A DNA stretch of 12,750 bases, taken from positions 1 to 12,750 of the forward strand of contig CAMLDT010000100.1 of assembly GCA_946479075.1 (NCBI GenBank). The letters run 5' to 3'. Position numbers and translations under genes: made by a program. The stretch is from an uncultured Polaromonas sp. (GTDB taxonomy: Bacteria; Pseudomonadota; Gammaproteobacteria; Burkholderiales; Burkholderiaceae). Of this stretch, positions 1 to 8,798 are shown one piece after another; position 1 is the first letter of the stretch; the number at the start of each line of letters is the position of its first letter. The notes under the pieces were generated by a model that did not search any database, was not told the DNA's origin, and saw only the letters and a program-made list of their open reading frames with translations.

Positions 1-11
1 CGACGTTGAAC
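1..11 (+). other. 3' end of the attC site of the preceding cassette (partial)
   Basis: The window starts inside an attC. Only the tail is seen, ending in core box GTTGAAC at 5-11. The box matches the R'' at 382-388 (TTTCAAC, one mismatch), so cassette 1 begins at position 6 and at least one more cassette or attI lies to the left. Confidence 0.7.
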
Positions 12-18
12 AGCAGCA

Positions 19-372
19 ATGCGGCTAGTCACAGTTGTCATCGGTATCGGAATTCTGATTGCGCTCAACGGCTGCGACGCTGGCTGCGGTAACGATGTTG
101 CGTCAGCCACCGAATCCCCACACGGAGGTCACACCGCAGTGGTCTTCAATCGCAATTGCGGCGCGACTACTGGCTTCAATACGCAGCTCTCGGTTCTGGC
201 GAAAGGCGAGGCACTTCCCAGTGAAGCGGGGAACACTTTCATTGCCGATGGCTCGCTGGCGTTAGGACTTCGGTGGGCGTCGGAGTCCGAGCTTGTGGTT
301 ACAGGCCATCATGGCGCGAAGATCTTCAAGCAAGAGAAGCTCGCAAACGGAGTGACGGTCTCGTATGAATGA
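19..372 (+). CDS. Cassette 1: small putative lipoprotein, function unknown
   Basis: A 117-residue product with a hydrophobic N-terminal stretch (residues 4-16) ending in a lipobox LNGC. Cys19 would be lipidated and the mature protein would be about 99 residues in the periplasm. Asp20 at the +2 position is, by the E. coli rule, an inner-membrane retention signal. Two further cysteines, Cys23 and Cys47, could form a disulfide. The mature part contains NRNCGATTGF (44-53), a stretch I associate with small secreted hypothetical proteins, but I cannot name the family with certainty. The ATG lies 7 nt after the cassette core box with no Shine-Dalgarno sequence. The ORF ends 9 nt before the R'' box, so it fills the cassette. 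No promoter is visible; expression would depend on upstream transcription. The reading frame and lipobox are clear, the role is not. Confidence 0.8.
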   Translation: MRLVTVVIGIGILIALNGCDAGCGNDVASATESPHGGHTAVVFNRNCGATTGFNTQLSVLAKGEALPSEAGNTFIADGSLALGLRWASESELVVTGHHGAKIFKQEKLANGVTVSYE

Positions 373-381
373 AACTCTGCT

Positions 382-438
382 TTTCAACCCTACGCTGGAG
401 CGGACGGCTTCGCCGCCCGCTCAGCTGGCACGTTGAAC
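382..438 (+). other. attC site of cassette 1 (57 bp)
   Basis: R'' box TTTCAAC at 382-388 and R' core GTTGAAC at 432-438 flank an imperfect palindrome around AGCGGACGGC / GCCGCCCGCT (about 399-421). Its inner sequence closely resembles the 57-bp site at 718-774, so the two are of one attC lineage. Recombination would cut between 432 and 433. Confidence 0.85.
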
Positions 439-443
439 ATCAC

Positions 444-716
444 ATGGGACTTCGCCAGCAATTCCGTTTCGCTGCGCAGTCGGAGACTTTGGTCGAGGAC
501 TTTTTGCGTAGGCTCGGCCAAGGCTTCACGCTGGACGAAGAGCGAGAGAGCTTTCTGTTTTCAGGGCCACCCGATGAGCGGTCATTCGAGTTTCATTGCG
601 TAATAGTTCAGGGCGGTATCGACGTTCATCGAGCCGGCCAATATTTCGAGTTCCTCGGCATGTTCGTCGAGGGGCTCACCGGTGAGTTTGGACAGGTTCT
701 TATGGAGGATGCGTGA
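444..716 (+). CDS. Cassette 2: small soluble protein of unknown function
   Basis: A 90-residue product. The frame stays open upstream to 369, but that part lies in attC and in cassette 1. The ATG at 444, 5 nt after the core box, is therefore the only start belonging to the cassette. The protein has no signal peptide or membrane segment. It reads as a compact alpha/beta domain with basic and aromatic residues near the N-terminus (LRQQFRF), an acidic central part (FTLDEERESF) and a hydrophobic helix-like segment (YFEFLGMFVEGLTGEFG). I do not recognise a named family. Small acidic single-domain proteins of this kind are common cassette cargo. No Shine-Dalgarno sequence precedes the ATG. The TGA stop (714-716) lies inside the terminal inverted repeat at 713-724. 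A regulatory or immunity role would be guesswork. Confidence 0.7.
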   Translation: MGLRQQFRFAAQSETLVEDFLRRLGQGFTLDEERESFLFSGPPDERSFEFHCVIVQGGIDVHRAGQYFEFLGMFVEGLTGEFGQVLMEDA

Positions 717-717
717 T

Positions 718-774
718 GTTCAACCTTTTGCTGCAGCGGACGGCTGCGCCGCCCGCTGAGCGCGAACGTTAGAC
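718..774 (+). other. attC site of cassette 2 (57 bp)
   Basis: R'' GTTCAAC (718-724) and R' core GTTAGAC (768-774) flank a palindrome CAGCGGACGGC / GCCGCCCGCTG with one mismatch. R'' pairs perfectly with this cassette's own opening core (432-438) but not with the adjacent R', which belongs to cassette 3. That is the expected signature of an integrated cassette. Cut point 768|769. Confidence 0.9.
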
Positions 775-793
775 CTCACAGGTCACACCGCAC

Positions 794-1257
794 ATGAACG
801 TCGTCCTCGAGCACACCAATCAGGTCCCTTGGTACACGGATATCGCAGCGACCTTTGCGGCGATGGGAGTGGATCCACTGCCCACGAGTGGTACGTGAGT
901 GACGTCGAAACGAATGTGTCGGTGCCAATGGTCAATGAGGGCGACATTTGGATGAGTGGCGAAGAACTCGCCGCCGTACTTGAGAAACCCGTCCAGTTCA
1001 TCTGGGCGGTGTTCAGCGCGTTTCCGCGTGGTGTCCGAGTCGAAGTGGAATGCGCGCCTGTCGCTGACGGGAACCCGCACTTCTGGAGGCCGCCGGAGGT
1101 GTCTCCGCAGTTGCCAGGAGCCTGCTTTGAAGTTGTCTGCTGGGATAGTTCTGCGACCATTCTCATAGGCGTGTCTAAGGACCAGGCCGAGCGCTTCGCT
1201 CGGACTTACCCAGATGCGAAGCCTCTCTCTTCTACTTGGCCCAAGGAGGGCGTGTGA
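794..1257 (+). pseudogene. Cassette 3: hypothetical protein gene, apparently frameshifted
   Basis: Two overlapping frames together look like one gene of about 150 codons. The frame from ATG 794 runs for 34 codons with a natural-looking sequence (VLEHTNQVPWYTDIAATFA, GVDPL) and stops at TGA 896-898. A second frame then carries the rest, HEWYVSDVETN to the TGA at 1255-1257, with features of a folded soluble domain (VQFIWAVFSAF, FEVVCWDSSATILIGV). The second frame has no ATG before its conserved-looking part, only a TTG at 829 followed by an implausible Gly/Ser-rich stretch. One added or two lost bases near 878-883 (CTGCCCACG) would join PL directly to HEWYVSD. No signal peptide or membrane segment. 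Function unknown. The gene may be inactive, the frameshift may be a sequencing error, or a shorter protein from TTG 829 may be made. Confidence 0.65.
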
Positions 1258-1258
1258 G

Positions 1259-1372
1259 GTCTAACAGGTTGTTCGACGCGGACACGCACCGGCACAGCGC
1301 CGCAAGGCGTGTGGACGAGCCTACGCCATGCGGCGCTGTGCCGCCGCGCGCCGGTCAACGCCAACGTTATGT
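1259..1372 (+). other. attC site of cassette 3 (114 bp)
   Basis: R'' GTCTAAC (1259-1265) and R' core GTTATGT (1366-1372) enclose a long palindrome. An arm starting GCACAGCGCCGC near 1292 pairs with the arm ending GCGGCGCTGTGC near 1341, with 18 of 19 bases complementary. It is twice the length of the first two sites. Cut point 1366|1367. Confidence 0.9.
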
Positions 1373-1375
1373 CTC

Positions 1376-1765
1376 ATGACTCGACGCCTGTTCTTGATCG
1401 CCACCATCGTATTGCACTCGTTCGTCCTGTCCGGGTGCTGGCGGACCAATGCTGACGAGTTTGACGAACTTGGTTCGAAGTCTGATTACTCCGTGCTGCA
1501 GCACTTCGAGTTCGAGTGGCGCGGAAAGACGATTTCCGATCCTCGGCTTGAGAAGCTGGGCGACGCAGAGGTCCTCGGTGTTCCGGCTCTAACGGGGCAT
1601 GGGACAGTCTGGATTCTCCTGAAGCCGAATGGCTCCCCCTTTTACAAACAGTCCATGGACTCCAACTACGTGGTGCAGAAGGCGCTTGTGGAGCGCTTGC
1701 TTGCGGAGAAGCGGGTCTCGCCAACTGTTGCTGCTGTCCTTTTGTCTCACGCTACGGCTCAATGA
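1376..1765 (+). CDS. Cassette 4: small putative lipoprotein, function unknown
   Basis: A 129-residue product. The frame is open back to 1328, but that part lies inside attC; the ATG at 1376 is 3 nt after the core box and is followed directly by a signal sequence (MTRRLFLIATIV, then a VLSGC lipobox). Cys21 would be lipidated. Trp22 at +2 predicts outer-membrane sorting by the E. coli rule, unlike the Asp at +2 in the cassette 1 lipoprotein. The mature part contains HFEFEWRGKTISDPRLEKLG and a C-terminal helical stretch (ALVERLLAEKRVSPTVAAVL). I do not recognise a family with a known role. There is no room for a Shine-Dalgarno sequence within the cassette. The TGA stop lies inside the terminal inverted repeat (1762-1773), whose partner (1366-1377) covers the first two bases of the start codon. 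Confidence 0.8.
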   Translation: MTRRLFLIATIVLHSFVLSGCWRTNADEFDELGSKSDYSVLQHFEFEWRGKTISDPRLEKLGDAEVLGVPALTGHGTVWILLKPNGSPFYKQSMDSNYVVQKALVERLLAEKRVSPTVAAVLLSHATAQ

Positions 1766-1766
1766 G

Positions 1767-1853
1767 ACATAACACTTCGGCCCACGCGGACACGCAGCAG
1801 CAAAATGCCGCTGCGCGGCAGTTGCTGCGTGCCGTTGGCCTCCAACGTTAGGC
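1767..1853 (+). other. attC site of cassette 4 (87 bp)
   Basis: R'' ACATAAC (1767-1773) and R' core GTTAGGC (1847-1853) enclose nested stems: CACGCAGCA / TGCTGCGTG is perfect, with TGCCGC / GCGGCA inside it. R'' is complementary to this cassette's own core GTTATGT at 1366. Cut point 1847|1848. Confidence 0.9.
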
Positions 1854-1860
1854 ATTAGGA

Positions 1861-2205
1861 ATGCAGCACCCCGCACACTTCGACGACGGTCGCCCGCCTT
1901 TCGACCAGGCGTTGGCCCGCCAGCTTGTAGGCAAGTACGTGCTGGTGGGCGTCACCATTCAGGACAAGCGCGGTGAGTTCAAGCGTCGAGAGCAGTTCCA
2001 TGGAACGGTGGTGTCGGCGAATGAACAATCAGGCATCGTTCTATCCCTCCTGGGCACTCGGGCGGGAGAGTTCAAGACCCTTCCTCCAATGACCGAGGTC
2101 TTTGAACCGGCGCCGCGAGGCACCTACTCGTTGAAGGACACCAATGAAGAAGTGGTGGATCCTGACTTCATGTGCACCTGGATGTTGACGCAGCCTGATG
2201 CCTAA
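1861..2205 (+). CDS. Cassette 5: small soluble protein of unknown function
   Basis: A 114-residue product from ATG 1861, 7 nt after the core box. AGGA sits directly against the ATG, too close for normal Shine-Dalgarno spacing. No signal peptide or membrane segment. The central part reads as alternating beta strands (KYVLVGVTIQD, EQFHGTVVSANE, GIVLSLLGT), suggesting a small beta-barrel-like domain. It is followed by an acidic, Pro-containing C-terminal part (VVDPDFMCTWML). I believe similar proteins occur as integron cassette cargo, but I know of no assigned function. The TAA stop (2203-2205) lies inside the R'' box GCCTAAC, so the ORF uses the cassette to its last possible codon. This is the last cassette before ordinary chromosome. 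Confidence 0.8.
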   Translation: MQHPAHFDDGRPPFDQALARQLVGKYVLVGVTIQDKRGEFKRREQFHGTVVSANEQSGIVLSLLGTRAGEFKTLPPMTEVFEPAPRGTYSLKDTNEEVVDPDFMCTWMLTQPDA

Positions 2206-2290
2206 CCAGTCGTTCGGCACGGACGCATAGGTGCATCTATGCGCTTTTGTGCACTTGCCTCCCGGTCGCGGGTCAACTTCGACGCCAGGC
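2200..2290 (+). other. Terminal attC site of cassette 5, degenerate R'
   Basis: R'' GCCTAAC (2200-2206) matches cassette 5's own core GTTAGGC. A hairpin CGCATAG / CTATGCG follows. The right end is decayed. Aligning GGTCAAC with the same block of the 114-bp site puts R' at 2284-2290 as GCCAGGC (TT changed to CC at the cut position); an alternative is CTTCGAC at 2277-2283. In an integron, the bases after the last cut come from the original attI, so poor conservation here is plausible. The site probably recombines poorly. Confidence 0.65.
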
Positions 2291-3209: not shown

Positions 3210-4877
3210 ATGCTGCACAAACTCAATCTCCTGTTTCCAATCCGTTACGCCGTCATGGGCCTGTGCCTGTTGGGCGTTCTGCTTGCCGGACTGAGCTTGC
3301 TGTCCGGCGGCAGCGGCTGGATGGCTCTGGGGGTGTGCGCGGTGTTGCTGGGCCTGGGCGTCCACGATGTGCGCCAGACGCACAGCTCCATCCTGCGCAA
3401 CTACCCGGTGATCGGCCATCTGCGCTTTTTGCTGGAATTCATCCGCCCGGAGATGCGCCAGTACTTCATTGAAAGCGATTCGGAAGCCGTGCCGTTTTCG
3501 CGCGCGCAGCGTTCGCTGGTGTACCAGCGCGCCAAGGGCGAGATGGACAATCGGCCTTTCGGCACGCAGCTCGATGTGAGTCAACACGGCTATGAGTGGA
3601 TCAACCATTCGGTGCAACCGACCCACATCACCTCGCACGACTTCCGCATCACCATCGGCCCCGACTGCGCCCAGCCCTACAGCGCCAGCATCTTCAACAT
3701 CTCGGCCATGAGTTTCGGCGCGCTGTCGGCCAACGCCATCCTCGCGCTCAACAGCGGCGCGAAAAAAGGCGGCTTTGCGCACGACACCGGCGAAGGCTCG
3801 ATCTCGCAGCACCACCGCGTGCACGGCGGCGACCTGATCTGGGAGATCGGCTCGGGCTACTTCGGTTGCCGCAACGACGATGGCAGCTTCAGCCCCGAGC
3901 GCTTTGTTGCGGGCGCCACCGATCCGCAGGTCAAGCTGATCGAGCTCAAGCTGAGCCAGGGCGCCAAGCCCGGCCACGGCGGCATCCTGCCGGGCGCCAA
4001 GGTCACGGCCGAGATTGCCGCGGCGCGGGGCGTGCCCATCGGCAAGGACTGCGTGTCGCCGTCTGCACACAGTGCGTTTTCCACGCCGGTCGAGATGATG
4101 CACTTCATTGCGAGGCTGCGCGAGCTGTCGGGCGGCAAGCCGACCGGCTTCAAGTTCTGCATCGGCCACCCCTGGGAGTGGTTTGCCATGGTCAAGGCCA
4201 TGCTGGAGACCGGCATCACGCCCGACTTCATCGTGGTGGATGGCGCCGAGGGCGGCACCGGTGCGGCGCCGCTGGAATTTACCGACCACGTCGGCGCGCC
4301 GGTGCAGGAAGGCCTGCTGCTGGTGCACAACACGCTGCTGGGCGTGGGCCTGCGCGACAAGATCAGCGTGGGCTGCGCCGGCAAGGTGATCAGCGCCTTC
4401 GACATCACGCGCATGATGGCGCTGGGCGCCGACTGGTGCAACTCGGGCCGCGCCTTCATGTTTGCACTGGGCTGCATCCAGGCGCAGACCTGCCACACCG
4501 GCAACTGCCCGACCGGTGTCACCACGCAAGACGCGGTGCGCCAGCAGGCGCTGGTGGTGCCCGACAAGGCCGAGCGCGTCTGGCGCTACCACCAGAGCAC
4601 GCTGAAGGCGCTCAAGGAACTGCTGGAAGCTGCGGGGCTGCACCACACCGACGACGTGACGGCCCACCACATCGTGCGCCGCATCAACGACACCGAGGTG
4701 CGGCTGCTGTCCAATCTGGTGATGCGGGTCAAGCAGGGTTCGCTGCTGACCGACCTGGAGAGCCAGCACCAGGTGTTCAAGCTTTACTGGCCGCTGGCCA
4801 GCGCGCACAGCTTTGCCGTCAGCAAGCCGGACGACAAGGTTTCGAGCACCGGTGAGCTGGCGCCACCTGCGGAGTAA
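3210..4877 (+). CDS. Membrane-anchored FMN-binding glutamate synthase family protein
   Basis: A 555-residue protein. Two hydrophobic segments (about 12-31 and 37-51) anchor it. The rest is the FMN-binding central plus synthase part of glutamate synthases. Visible marks are SAMSFGALS (about 165-173) in the FMN barrel, DGAEGGTG (344-351), and a Cys motif C422-x5-C428-x4-C433 (GCIQAQTCHTGNCPTG), the 3Fe-4S ligand spacing of GltS. The glutaminase domain and the C-terminal beta-helix of full GltB are absent, so it cannot release ammonia from glutamine by itself. The physiological substrate of such stand-alone proteins is not established. An in-frame ATG at 3165 would add 15 residues. I prefer 3210 because the product then begins just before the first membrane segment and because GAAAG precedes it; neither start has a strong ribosome site. 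A TATGAT at 3164-3169 could be a -10 element, but no good -35 is present. It converges with the PIN gene, 3 bp apart. Confidence 0.88.
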   Translation: MLHKLNLLFPIRYAVMGLCLLGVLLAGLSLLSGGSGWMALGVCAVLLGLGVHDVRQTHSSILRNYPVIGHLRFLLEFIRPEMRQYFIESDSEAVPFSRAQRSLVYQRAKGEMDNRPFGTQLDVSQHGYEWINHSVQPTHITSHDFRITIGPDCAQPYSASIFNISAMSFGALSANAILALNSGAKKGGFAHDTGEGSISQHHRVHGGDLIWEIGSGYFGCRNDDGSFSPERFVAGATDPQVKLIELKLSQGAKPGHGGILPGAKVTAEIAAARGVPIGKDCVSPSAHSAFSTPVEMMHFIARLRELSGGKPTGFKFCIGHPWEWFAMVKAMLETGITPDFIVVDGAEGGTGAAPLEFTDHVGAPVQEGLLLVHNTLLGVGLRDKISVGCAGKVISAFDITRMMALGADWCNSGRAFMFALGCIQAQTCHTGNCPTGVTTQDAVRQQALVVPDKAERVWRYHQSTLKALKELLEAAGLHHTDDVTAHHIVRRINDTEVRLLSNLVMRVKQGSLLTDLESQHQVFKLYWPLASAHSFAVSKPDDKVSSTGELAPPAE

Positions 4878-5312: not shown

Positions 5313-5315
5313 GAT

Positions 5316-5421
5316 CCGTTCGCGTTGAGCCTGTCGAAACGATGTCTGTGTGTGAGATGGTGTGTAGCCAGGGCTTCGACCCTTCGGCAAGCTCAGGACA
5401 GGCCAAGCTCAGCCCGAACGG
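5316..5421. repeat. Palindromic intergenic repeat, copy 1 (downstream of rlmL)
   Basis: A left arm (5316-5339, CCGTTCG...GAGCCTGTCGAA) and a right arm (5375-5421, TTCGACCCTTCG...CGAACGG) are inversely related. The right arm matches 43 of 47 bases with 6910-6956 and the left arm 20 of 24 with 6857-6880. The GAGCCTGTCGAA word is typical of dispersed intergenic repeats in Comamonadaceae genomes (from memory). It occupies most of the 132-bp gap between rlmL and the PIN gene. Confidence 0.85.
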
Positions 5422-5444
5422 AAAGAAGGGGGCAAGCCTGTCGG

Positions 5445-6856: not shown

Positions 6857-6956
6857 CCGTTCGGCCTGAGCCTGTCGAAGGCTATAGCCACCGCCAGAGC
6901 CGCAGGCGTTTCGACCCTTCGACAAGCTCAGGACAGGCCAGGCTCAACGCGAACGG
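6857..6956. repeat. Palindromic intergenic repeat, copy 2 (upstream of rlmL)
   Basis: Same family as 5316-5421: left arm 6857-6880 (CCGTTCGGCCTGAGCCTG...) and right arm 6910-6956 (TTCGACCCTTCGACAAGC...). The unrelated spacers of the two copies (35 bp at 5340-5374, 29 bp at 6881-6909) show they are diverged dispersed elements and not a recent duplication of the locus. It fills the 149-bp gap between rpoN and rlmL. Confidence 0.85.
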
Positions 6957-6973
6957 ATATGGACGTGTGGGTG

Positions 6974-8519: not shown

Positions 8520-8798
8520 CCCCCACGCTCCCCACTGCGTGTGGTTCCCTGCCCCCCGAGGGGGCTGGCCTTGCTTGGGGCGGCCCGGCGCGGCGGCCGG
8601 CGCGTGCTCGTAATCTGCTGGCCAGCGGGGGCCGCGCAACCGGCTTTGCCGGGGCGCGGGCGCCGCCCCCTGCAGGGGGGAGGGAGCTACACGCAGTGAG
8701 CGACGATGGGGGGGAGCCATTTTTTCGCCGGGCCGCCCCAAGAAAAAATACGCACCCTCGGGGGGCAGAGAGCTACACGCAGTGAGCGAACGTGGGGG
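8520..8798. repeat. Long nested inverted/direct repeat filling the lptB-rpoN gap
   Basis: The 297-bp gap holds no gene. Its outer arms are inversely related: 8520-8564 (CCCCCACGCTC...CCCCGAGGGGG) against 8755-8798. Inside them a 17-bp perfect inverted pair lies at 8574-8590 and 8726-8742 (CTTGGGGCGGCCCGGCG and its complement). A third, direct copy lies at 8672-8713: 20 bp at 8684-8703 are identical to 8770-8789. The middle (8591-8671) is very GC-rich with further hairpins. This resembles dispersed intergenic repeats of Comamonadaceae (from memory) and would fold strongly in RNA between lptB and rpoN. Confidence 0.8.

Follow-up and report, generated by a model that had tools for sequence, protein, structure and literature searches.

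Ends of many integron cassettes match within the cassette over about twelve bases and probably form the two halves of an attC hairpin arm

The window, i.e. the whole analysed stretch of 12,750 nucleotides from an uncultured Polaromonas sp., begins inside an integron cassette array. Five cassettes were found, each organized as a unit with a single small ORF on the plus strand, and no Pfam match was obtained for any of these five ORFs. According to the attC finder, the units abut via attC sites. All four internal sites carry both boxes, R'' (RYYYAAC) as well as R' (GTTRRRY), the two together showing no more than one deviation per site, and an imperfect L''/L' stem between them (stem scores 11-14). 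The fifth, terminal attC site is a remnant (2200-2275, right end approximate) which has an R'' box and lacks R', as there is no GTT at the expected distance; the first GTT, at 2212, falls within the 5' arm, and the next one is at 2401.

In all five cassettes, the complementarity between start and end extends past 7 nt. The start zone of cassette 1 (5-16), i.e. the R' box GTTGAAC plus 5 nt, is complementary at 11 of 12 positions to its end zone (377-388), i.e. 5 nt plus the R'' box TTTCAAC; the ORF in between (19-372) encodes 117 aa, and the 57-nt attC site in the array (382-438) ends with an R' box (432-438) that is the one of cassette 2. In cassette 2, the start zone (432-443) pairs at 12/12 positions with the end zone (713-724), which contains the TGA stop (714-716) of an ORF with a putative start codon (444-716) and runs into another 57-nt attC site (718-774). 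Cassette 3 has its start zone at 768-779 and its end zone at 1254-1265, matching at 12/12 positions, or 13/13 if bases 780 and 1253 are included; the TGA stop (1255-1257) of its ORF (829-1257, start codon uncertain) again lies in the end zone, and its attC site is 114 nt long (1259-1372). The zones of cassette 4 (1366-1377 and 1762-1773) match at 12/12 positions, with a TGA stop at 1763-1765 inside the end zone, an ORF at 1376-1765 that has a putative in-frame ATG at 1376 and was scanned from 1370 onwards, and an 87-nt attC site (1767-1853). Finally, the zones of cassette 5 (1847-1858 and 2195-2206) match at 11/12 positions, or 12/13 including bases 1859 and 2194, and the 114-aa ORF (1861-2205) has its TAA stop inside the R'' box. 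The single mismatch is a G-T wobble on the top strand, with T on the start side and G on the end side. All five terminal pairs had been reported in the first-pass annotation and were recovered exactly, and when 20 nt were compared the run of matches ended at base 12 or 13 in every cassette.

At positions 8-12, just beyond the core, own ends in the window matched at 24 of 25 positions, compared with 60 of 100 when the ends were swapped among the five cassettes, so that the complementarity does exceed that of re-paired ends. The swapped ends still match this often because of a CATCA-like motif common to the cassettes, which accounts for only part of the match. Among the arrays compared, that of the window ranks at the upper extreme: the three of its cassettes that were called automatically average 5.0 out of 5 at bases 8-12, the median being 2.83 over 47 arrays with at least three cassettes.

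The same measurement was made on 396 distinct cassettes from 111 loci, left after removal of 31 out of 427 called cassettes that were repeats or contained N. Of the window, only cassettes 2, 3 and 4 are included, since for cassettes 1 and 5 an attC site was called on one side only. A part of the 396 will be false or mis-bounded, which dilutes the own-end figures; in an oriented set from an earlier stage, 57 of 318 match at no more than five of the seven core bases, and without extension. At positions 8-12, own ends matched at 1095 of 1980 positions (0.553; 55.3%), array neighbors at 467 of 1385 (0.337; 277 junctions) and other pairs from the same array at 4523 of 13405 (0.337; 2681 pairs), i.e. 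equal to the neighbors. Own ends surpassed swapped ends at each of the five positions, and the matched pairs included all four bases, each above expectation at every position. When ends were permuted within loci, using the 357 cassettes from loci holding two or more, none of 1000 permutations reached the observed 998 matches (mean 649.9, sd 19.4). In the 264 cassettes whose 7-bp core is perfect, the match between own ends was 844 of 1320 positions (0.639), as opposed to 0.304 after re-pairing with cassettes of identical core. The profile also persisted under stricter attC stem thresholds (396, 342, 269 and 192 cassettes). The proposal that the extra bases differ between cassettes yet match within each is thus borne out on a much larger sample, with no excess between array neighbors. 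Matching is far from universal among the 396 cassettes: 57 match at 12/12 positions, 133 at 11 or more and 202 at 10 or more. Three dfrA-like cassettes, a label based on a start in common with dfrA27 plus homology, match over 7 or 8 bases only.

With increasing distance from the crossover the matching declines, to 0.70, 0.63, 0.55, 0.50 and 0.38 at bases 8 to 12, respectively, and beyond base 12 the own-end excess is gone. Given a match at all earlier bases, base 12 matched in 57 of 98 cassettes and base 13 in 12 of 57, which is about chance and makes the additional match of cassette 3 unremarkable. Over positions 13-17 the own ends reached 0.246, against 0.243 and 0.237 for re-paired ends. 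The uniform length noticed in the window consequently holds in a wider sense, in that the matched zone ends at base 12 across loci. Sampled integrons of Burkholderiales and of Gammaproteobacteria showed the same profile with the same drop at base 13.

The mismatches that do occur are biased with respect to strand. In the 201 cassettes matching at 10 or more of 12 positions, after five of the 396 without a clear strand had been left out, 64 mismatches were bottom-strand G-T, 18 top-strand G-T and 131 of other types, with 44.5, 28.3 and 140.1 expected (p=0.0003). This polarity was unchanged under two alternative strand assignments and was also seen at a threshold of 9/12 (bottom 100, top 39; p=0.002 to 0.005). 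A surplus of C-to-T changes on an often single-stranded bottom strand would give the same bias without selection. The bottom strand is the one recombined by the integrase. In modelled folding of bottom-strand DNA, the circle form had a mean of -25.85 kcal/mol and the array form -21.87 kcal/mol over 346 sites, being more stable in the circle at 278 sites and less stable at 53; these are 346 out of 391 sites, after exclusion of the named loci, L082-L121 and sites longer than 190 nt. The halves can meet only in the excised circle, where the modelled stem is the more stable one. According to PMC5371416, agreement between R'' and the variable part of R' is not required when the site lies in an array.

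Judging from sequence and modelled folding, the terminal pairs are probably the halves of a 12-nt hairpin arm belonging to the cassette's own attC site, which would assist folding and insertion of the circle. The crossover point would divide each arm into its two terminal halves. Upon excision as a circle, the start (GTTRRRY plus 5 nt) would be brought beside the end (5 nt plus RYYYAAC), the halves would pair on the bottom strand, and the single-stranded attC, once folded, would have its R''/R' stem lengthened to 12 bp, i.e. about one recombinase arm. Xer recombinase arms are 11 bp. The longer arm probably aids bottom-strand folding of the circle and binding of the integrase for insertion at attI, and selection during insertion would maintain it. 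Within an array, the sequence next to a cassette end is the start of another cassette, and most of the extra stem would be lost. We infer the use of the extra 5 bp by the integrase, the selection at insertion and the correspondence of 12 nt to a recombinase arm. Of the three ideas in the first-pass annotation, a folding aid for the integrase is the best, because the matching is found only within cassettes, the halves meet only in the circle and the modelled stem is more stable there; the folding aid and the within-cassette matching are supported, while the supposed unusualness and the RNA panhandle are not.

The panhandle, in which the two ends of the cassette mRNA would pair and leave the ORF in a loop, would have an identical layout on the top strand. 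RNA would accept top-strand G-T mismatches as G-U, yet these are depleted (18 against 28.3 expected) and those of the bottom strand enriched (64 against 44.5), and the extension continues the core without a break, in a single arm that includes the recombination boxes. The bias towards the bottom strand thus counts against this idea, which we consider highly improbable. It is very unlikely as well that a shared consensus, TCA on the start side and TGA stops on the end side, yields the matching without any link between own ends. A genuine consensus does exist at bases 9-11, as seen in 318 oriented cassettes; among 376 cassette ORFs of 50 aa or longer, the stop codon begins at base 4 in 95 cases and at base 11 in 25; and swapped ends in the window still match at 60 of 100 positions. 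Nevertheless, own ends match more often than swapped ends throughout positions 8 to 12, and do so with all four bases, and base 8, without a strong consensus, is the best matched of these (276 of 396). As the whole cause, consensus is ruled out by the re-pairing of ends. Practically negligible is the probability that these are the terminal inverted repeats of a transposon-like element mobilised by a transposase: such repeats are indeed present, but they are located on the attC R boxes, the units abut through attC sites, and no transposase was recognised among the five cassette ORFs, given their lack of Pfam matches.

A relic of cassette birth is a more serious rival, although we still regard it as unlikely. 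Here, both ends would derive from one perfect inverted repeat that is now merely decaying, and cassettes with matched ends could simply have arisen so. This too predicts own-end matching without neighbor matching. Uniform neutral decay, on the other hand, does not predict the steady fall from the crossover and the stop at 12, transitions are not enriched among the mismatches (82 of 213, with an expectation of 72.8), and the strand bias requires an additional cause. Homologous cassettes, proposed earlier as a check for covariation, gave a mixed answer. Most of the 25 homologous pairs listed have ends in common, duplicate each other within an array or are uncertain in their boundaries. The one clean and fully compensated pair is L126/L220 (52.6% protein identity), with 6 of 6 differing positions matched at both ends. 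Between aadA5 and aadA2 the change at base 6 is paired and that at base 12 unpaired, and aadA1 and aadA2 differ by two unpaired changes, both bottom-strand wobbles. A looser list of homologues (70 of 154 pairs listed) was set aside, as it held many matches of 35-95 nt of unclear kind. Covariation after cassette divergence is suggested, although the matched differences of L126/L220 could also reflect two separate births.

Returning to the split hairpin arm, its completeness only in the free circle raises the more speculative thought, on balance doubtful, that it acts as a one-way latch, with directionality written in the cassette ends. The cassette would then fold best when ready for insertion, and insertion would swap the partner, with a mean loss of about 4 kcal/mol of modelled stem, leaving the inserted site weaker for excision. 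This offers a testable cause for insertion being favored over excision. The data further suggest a functional attC arm of about 12 nt, as opposed to the 7-nt box of consensus definitions, with the full arm present only in the circular cassette. Matching of own ends also provides a cheap test of cassette boundaries.

The basic feature is already known and was published in 2009 at the latest. As stated in a section of Bouvier et al. 2009 (PMC2727003), which cites Rowe-Magnus 2003 and Sundstrom 1991 on R''/R' self-pairing, self-pairing in most cassettes covers 9-11 nt and so exceeds the 7-nt boxes. Five matching cassettes out of five are accordingly less striking than first thought, as is also evident from the 202 of 396 above. 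Relative to this known feature, the present measurements are sharper on three points, namely the own-end-only rule, the stop at 12 nt and the polarity by strand; the relevant parts of Bouvier et al. 2009 contain no neighbor test, limit of 12 or strand polarity of mismatches. Neither own-end-only matching nor a 12-nt limit was found in the sections consulted of a mostly non-subscription literature, which included PMC2727003, PMC3053210, PMC5371416, PMC4792948, PMC11641012, PMC8946536, PMC8191803 and PMC3518468.

Class 1 integron cassettes allow a direct comparison. The partial version of the feature mentioned for aadA1 in the first-pass annotation was confirmed, with 10/12 positions matched, and both of its mismatches are bottom-strand G-T pairs, unlike in the window. 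Both ends were found by a simple pattern for 11 cassettes among 22 genes, and seven of these match at 9 to 11 of 12 positions. While class 1 cassettes are carried on mobile integrons, and those of the window are small ORFs without Pfam match beside housekeeping genes, the remaining four of the 11, i.e. aadB, aadA2, aac(6')-Ib-cr and aac(6')-Il, have ends matching at 12/12 positions, like those in the window.

The window opens with the last part of an integron cassette array, followed by chromosomal genes, three of which were scanned with Pfam (UPF0149/SEC-C protein, sigma-54 and LptA-like, all on the minus strand). An ORF scan placed five small cassette ORFs on the plus strand, none with a Pfam match, and the attC finder located four complete sites, at 382-438, 718-774, 1259-1372 and 1767-1853. 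The first-pass annotation had reported that all five cassettes (array 5-2206) are bounded by inverted repeats 12-13 bp long, and each repeat was recovered exactly as listed. In the array, the R' box of each attC is part of the following cassette; the two complementary halves are the start zone of a cassette, made up of R' and 5 further nt, and the end zone of that same cassette, where 5 nt precede R'', and the run of matches stops at base 12 or 13 in each case. The re-pairing check that the annotation proposed also came out in its favor. At bases 8-12, i.e. the 5 nt beyond the 7-bp core counted inward from each cassette end, own ends matched at 24 of 25 positions, versus 60 of 100 for ends swapped among the five cassettes. 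A shared motif is therefore a partial contributor, which the own-end match exceeds. In the attC of the last cassette (within 2200-2400) the R'' box is kept and no GTT of an R' box lies where one would be expected, so this cassette probably cannot be excised through that site; despite this, its two ends match at 11 of 12 bases. Four of the five cassettes have their stop codon within the paired end zone (714-716, 1255-1257, 1763-1765 and 2203-2205). For cassette ORFs with a length of 50 aa or more (376 in total), the first base of the stop, counted from the R'' end, is base 4 in 95, where the box supplies the TAA, and base 11 in 25.

Other repeats occur further along the window. A 48-nt repeat has two copies, 92% identical, at 5375-5422 and 6910-6957, with 20-nt inverted copies nearby (5314-5333 and 6939-6958). 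Repeats of 20-38 nt, both inverted and direct and nested in one another, occupy 8533-8798, between the sigma-54 gene and a gene whose ORF reads as a putative ABC-type ATPase.

For the survey, loci were gathered around integron integrases (79 from genome contigs, two plasmid regions, and loci or stretches of further genomes). At the E-value limits used, genomes with an integron integrase numbered 149 of 399 in one order, 137 of 369 in one class and 103 of 247 in a further order; for another order the figure was 98 of 201. Cassettes were called by a script that seeks R'', R' and the L stem and leaves the extension bases unused, giving 396 distinct cassettes in 111 loci, three of them from the window. 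The fraction of own ends that matched fell from 0.70 at base 8 through 0.63, 0.55 and 0.50 to 0.38 at base 12, and was 0.23 at base 13. When ends were permuted within loci (357 cassettes), bases 8-12 showed 998 matches where 649.9 were expected (sd 19.4), and none of 1000 permutations reached the observed number; for bases 13-17 the same procedure gave 441 against 434.5. Re-pairing confined to cassettes that share the same 7-bp core brought the match down from 0.639 for own ends to 0.304. The own-end profile was alike in all four locus groups, with re-paired controls run for three of them, and was unchanged under stricter stem thresholds.

The window array ranked top of 47 arrays by mean match, the next two reaching 4.75 and 4.25 of 5, and is thus at the high end yet inside the range of the sampled arrays. 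The feature is far from general, as many cassettes are without it: the match is perfect over 12 bases in 57 of 396 cassettes and covers at least 10 of 12 in 202, and it is limited to 7 or 8 bases in three cassettes inferred to be dfrA-like. At one locus outside the window (L276), near-identical 318-nt cassettes in repeated copies have ends matching over 9 nt, and in a series of collected loci (L271-L295) the match is lower at base 10 (0.37) than at base 11 (0.51); arm length may therefore vary by lineage.

The hairpin present in the array pairs a cassette end with the start of the next cassette, and it takes the excised circle to bring own ends together. Had templated correction of the array hairpins produced the matching, neighbors would be expected to match. 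The 277 array junctions, however, matched at 0.337 at bases 8-12, the level of other pairs from the same array (0.337, 2681 pairs), versus 0.553 for own ends, and such correction is therefore an unlikely cause. Hairpins were also modeled on the bottom strand with DNA energy parameters at 346 sites, where the mean was -25.85 kcal/mol in the circle form versus -21.87 kcal/mol in the array form, the circle form being the more stable at 278 sites and the less stable at 53. Lengthening from 7 to 12 nt contributed a modeled -3.70 kcal/mol to the circle form versus -1.32 kcal/mol to the array form, and for window cassettes 2, 3 and 4 the predicted difference between the two forms was about 9 kcal/mol each. 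The simplest account would be a functional attC R arm of approximately 12 nt, with sequence conserved in the 7-nt box only and pairing as the main requirement on the outer 5 nt. Such a length would fit one tyrosine-recombinase arm, as the cut, which follows the G of GTT, leaves 11 nt; Xer sites have an arm of 11 nt. Among solved structures, 2a3v (an IntI4 recombinase) is nearest in sequence to IntI1. We infer that insertion should be favored over excision, because the arm would be complete in the circle only.

Mismatches at bases 4-12 were polarized by strand in the 201 cassettes matched at 10 or more of 12 bases: 64 were G-T on the bottom strand and 18 on the top strand, versus 44.5 and 28.3 expected from independent draws on base composition (p=0.0003), and the outcome was the same when strand was assigned instead by the cassette's own ORF or its own stem bulge. 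The cassette transcript would correspond to the top strand. The bottom strand is the one recombined by the integrase, according to PMC2727003. As a caveat, the same trace would be expected from bottom-strand C-to-T change, and the single mismatch of cassette 5 is a top-strand wobble, contrary to the general trend. Paired change after divergence has thin evidence from the sequence comparisons. One clean homologous pair from two collected loci (L126 and L220) suggests it with six of six changes paired; between aadA5 and aadA2 one change is paired and one unpaired, and between aadA1 and aadA2 both changes are unpaired bottom-strand wobbles. The end matching is therefore still possibly a relic of cassette birth.

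A literature search did not find the own-end-only rule measured against neighbors, the stop at base 12 or the strand polarity of mismatches. The matching itself is already known, as follows from two published statements and from familiar cassettes. Bouvier et al. 2009 state that self-pairing reaches 9-11 nt in most cassettes (PMC2727003), and according to a 2017 paper a match to R'' is not required of the variable part of R' in arrays (PMC5371416). What the window shows is thus a known feature, well observed and independently so, and matched ends of 12/12 are likewise found in the aadB, aadA2, aac(6')-Ib-cr and aac(6')-Il cassettes, i.e. in four of the 11 cassettes with both ends located among 22 genes examined.
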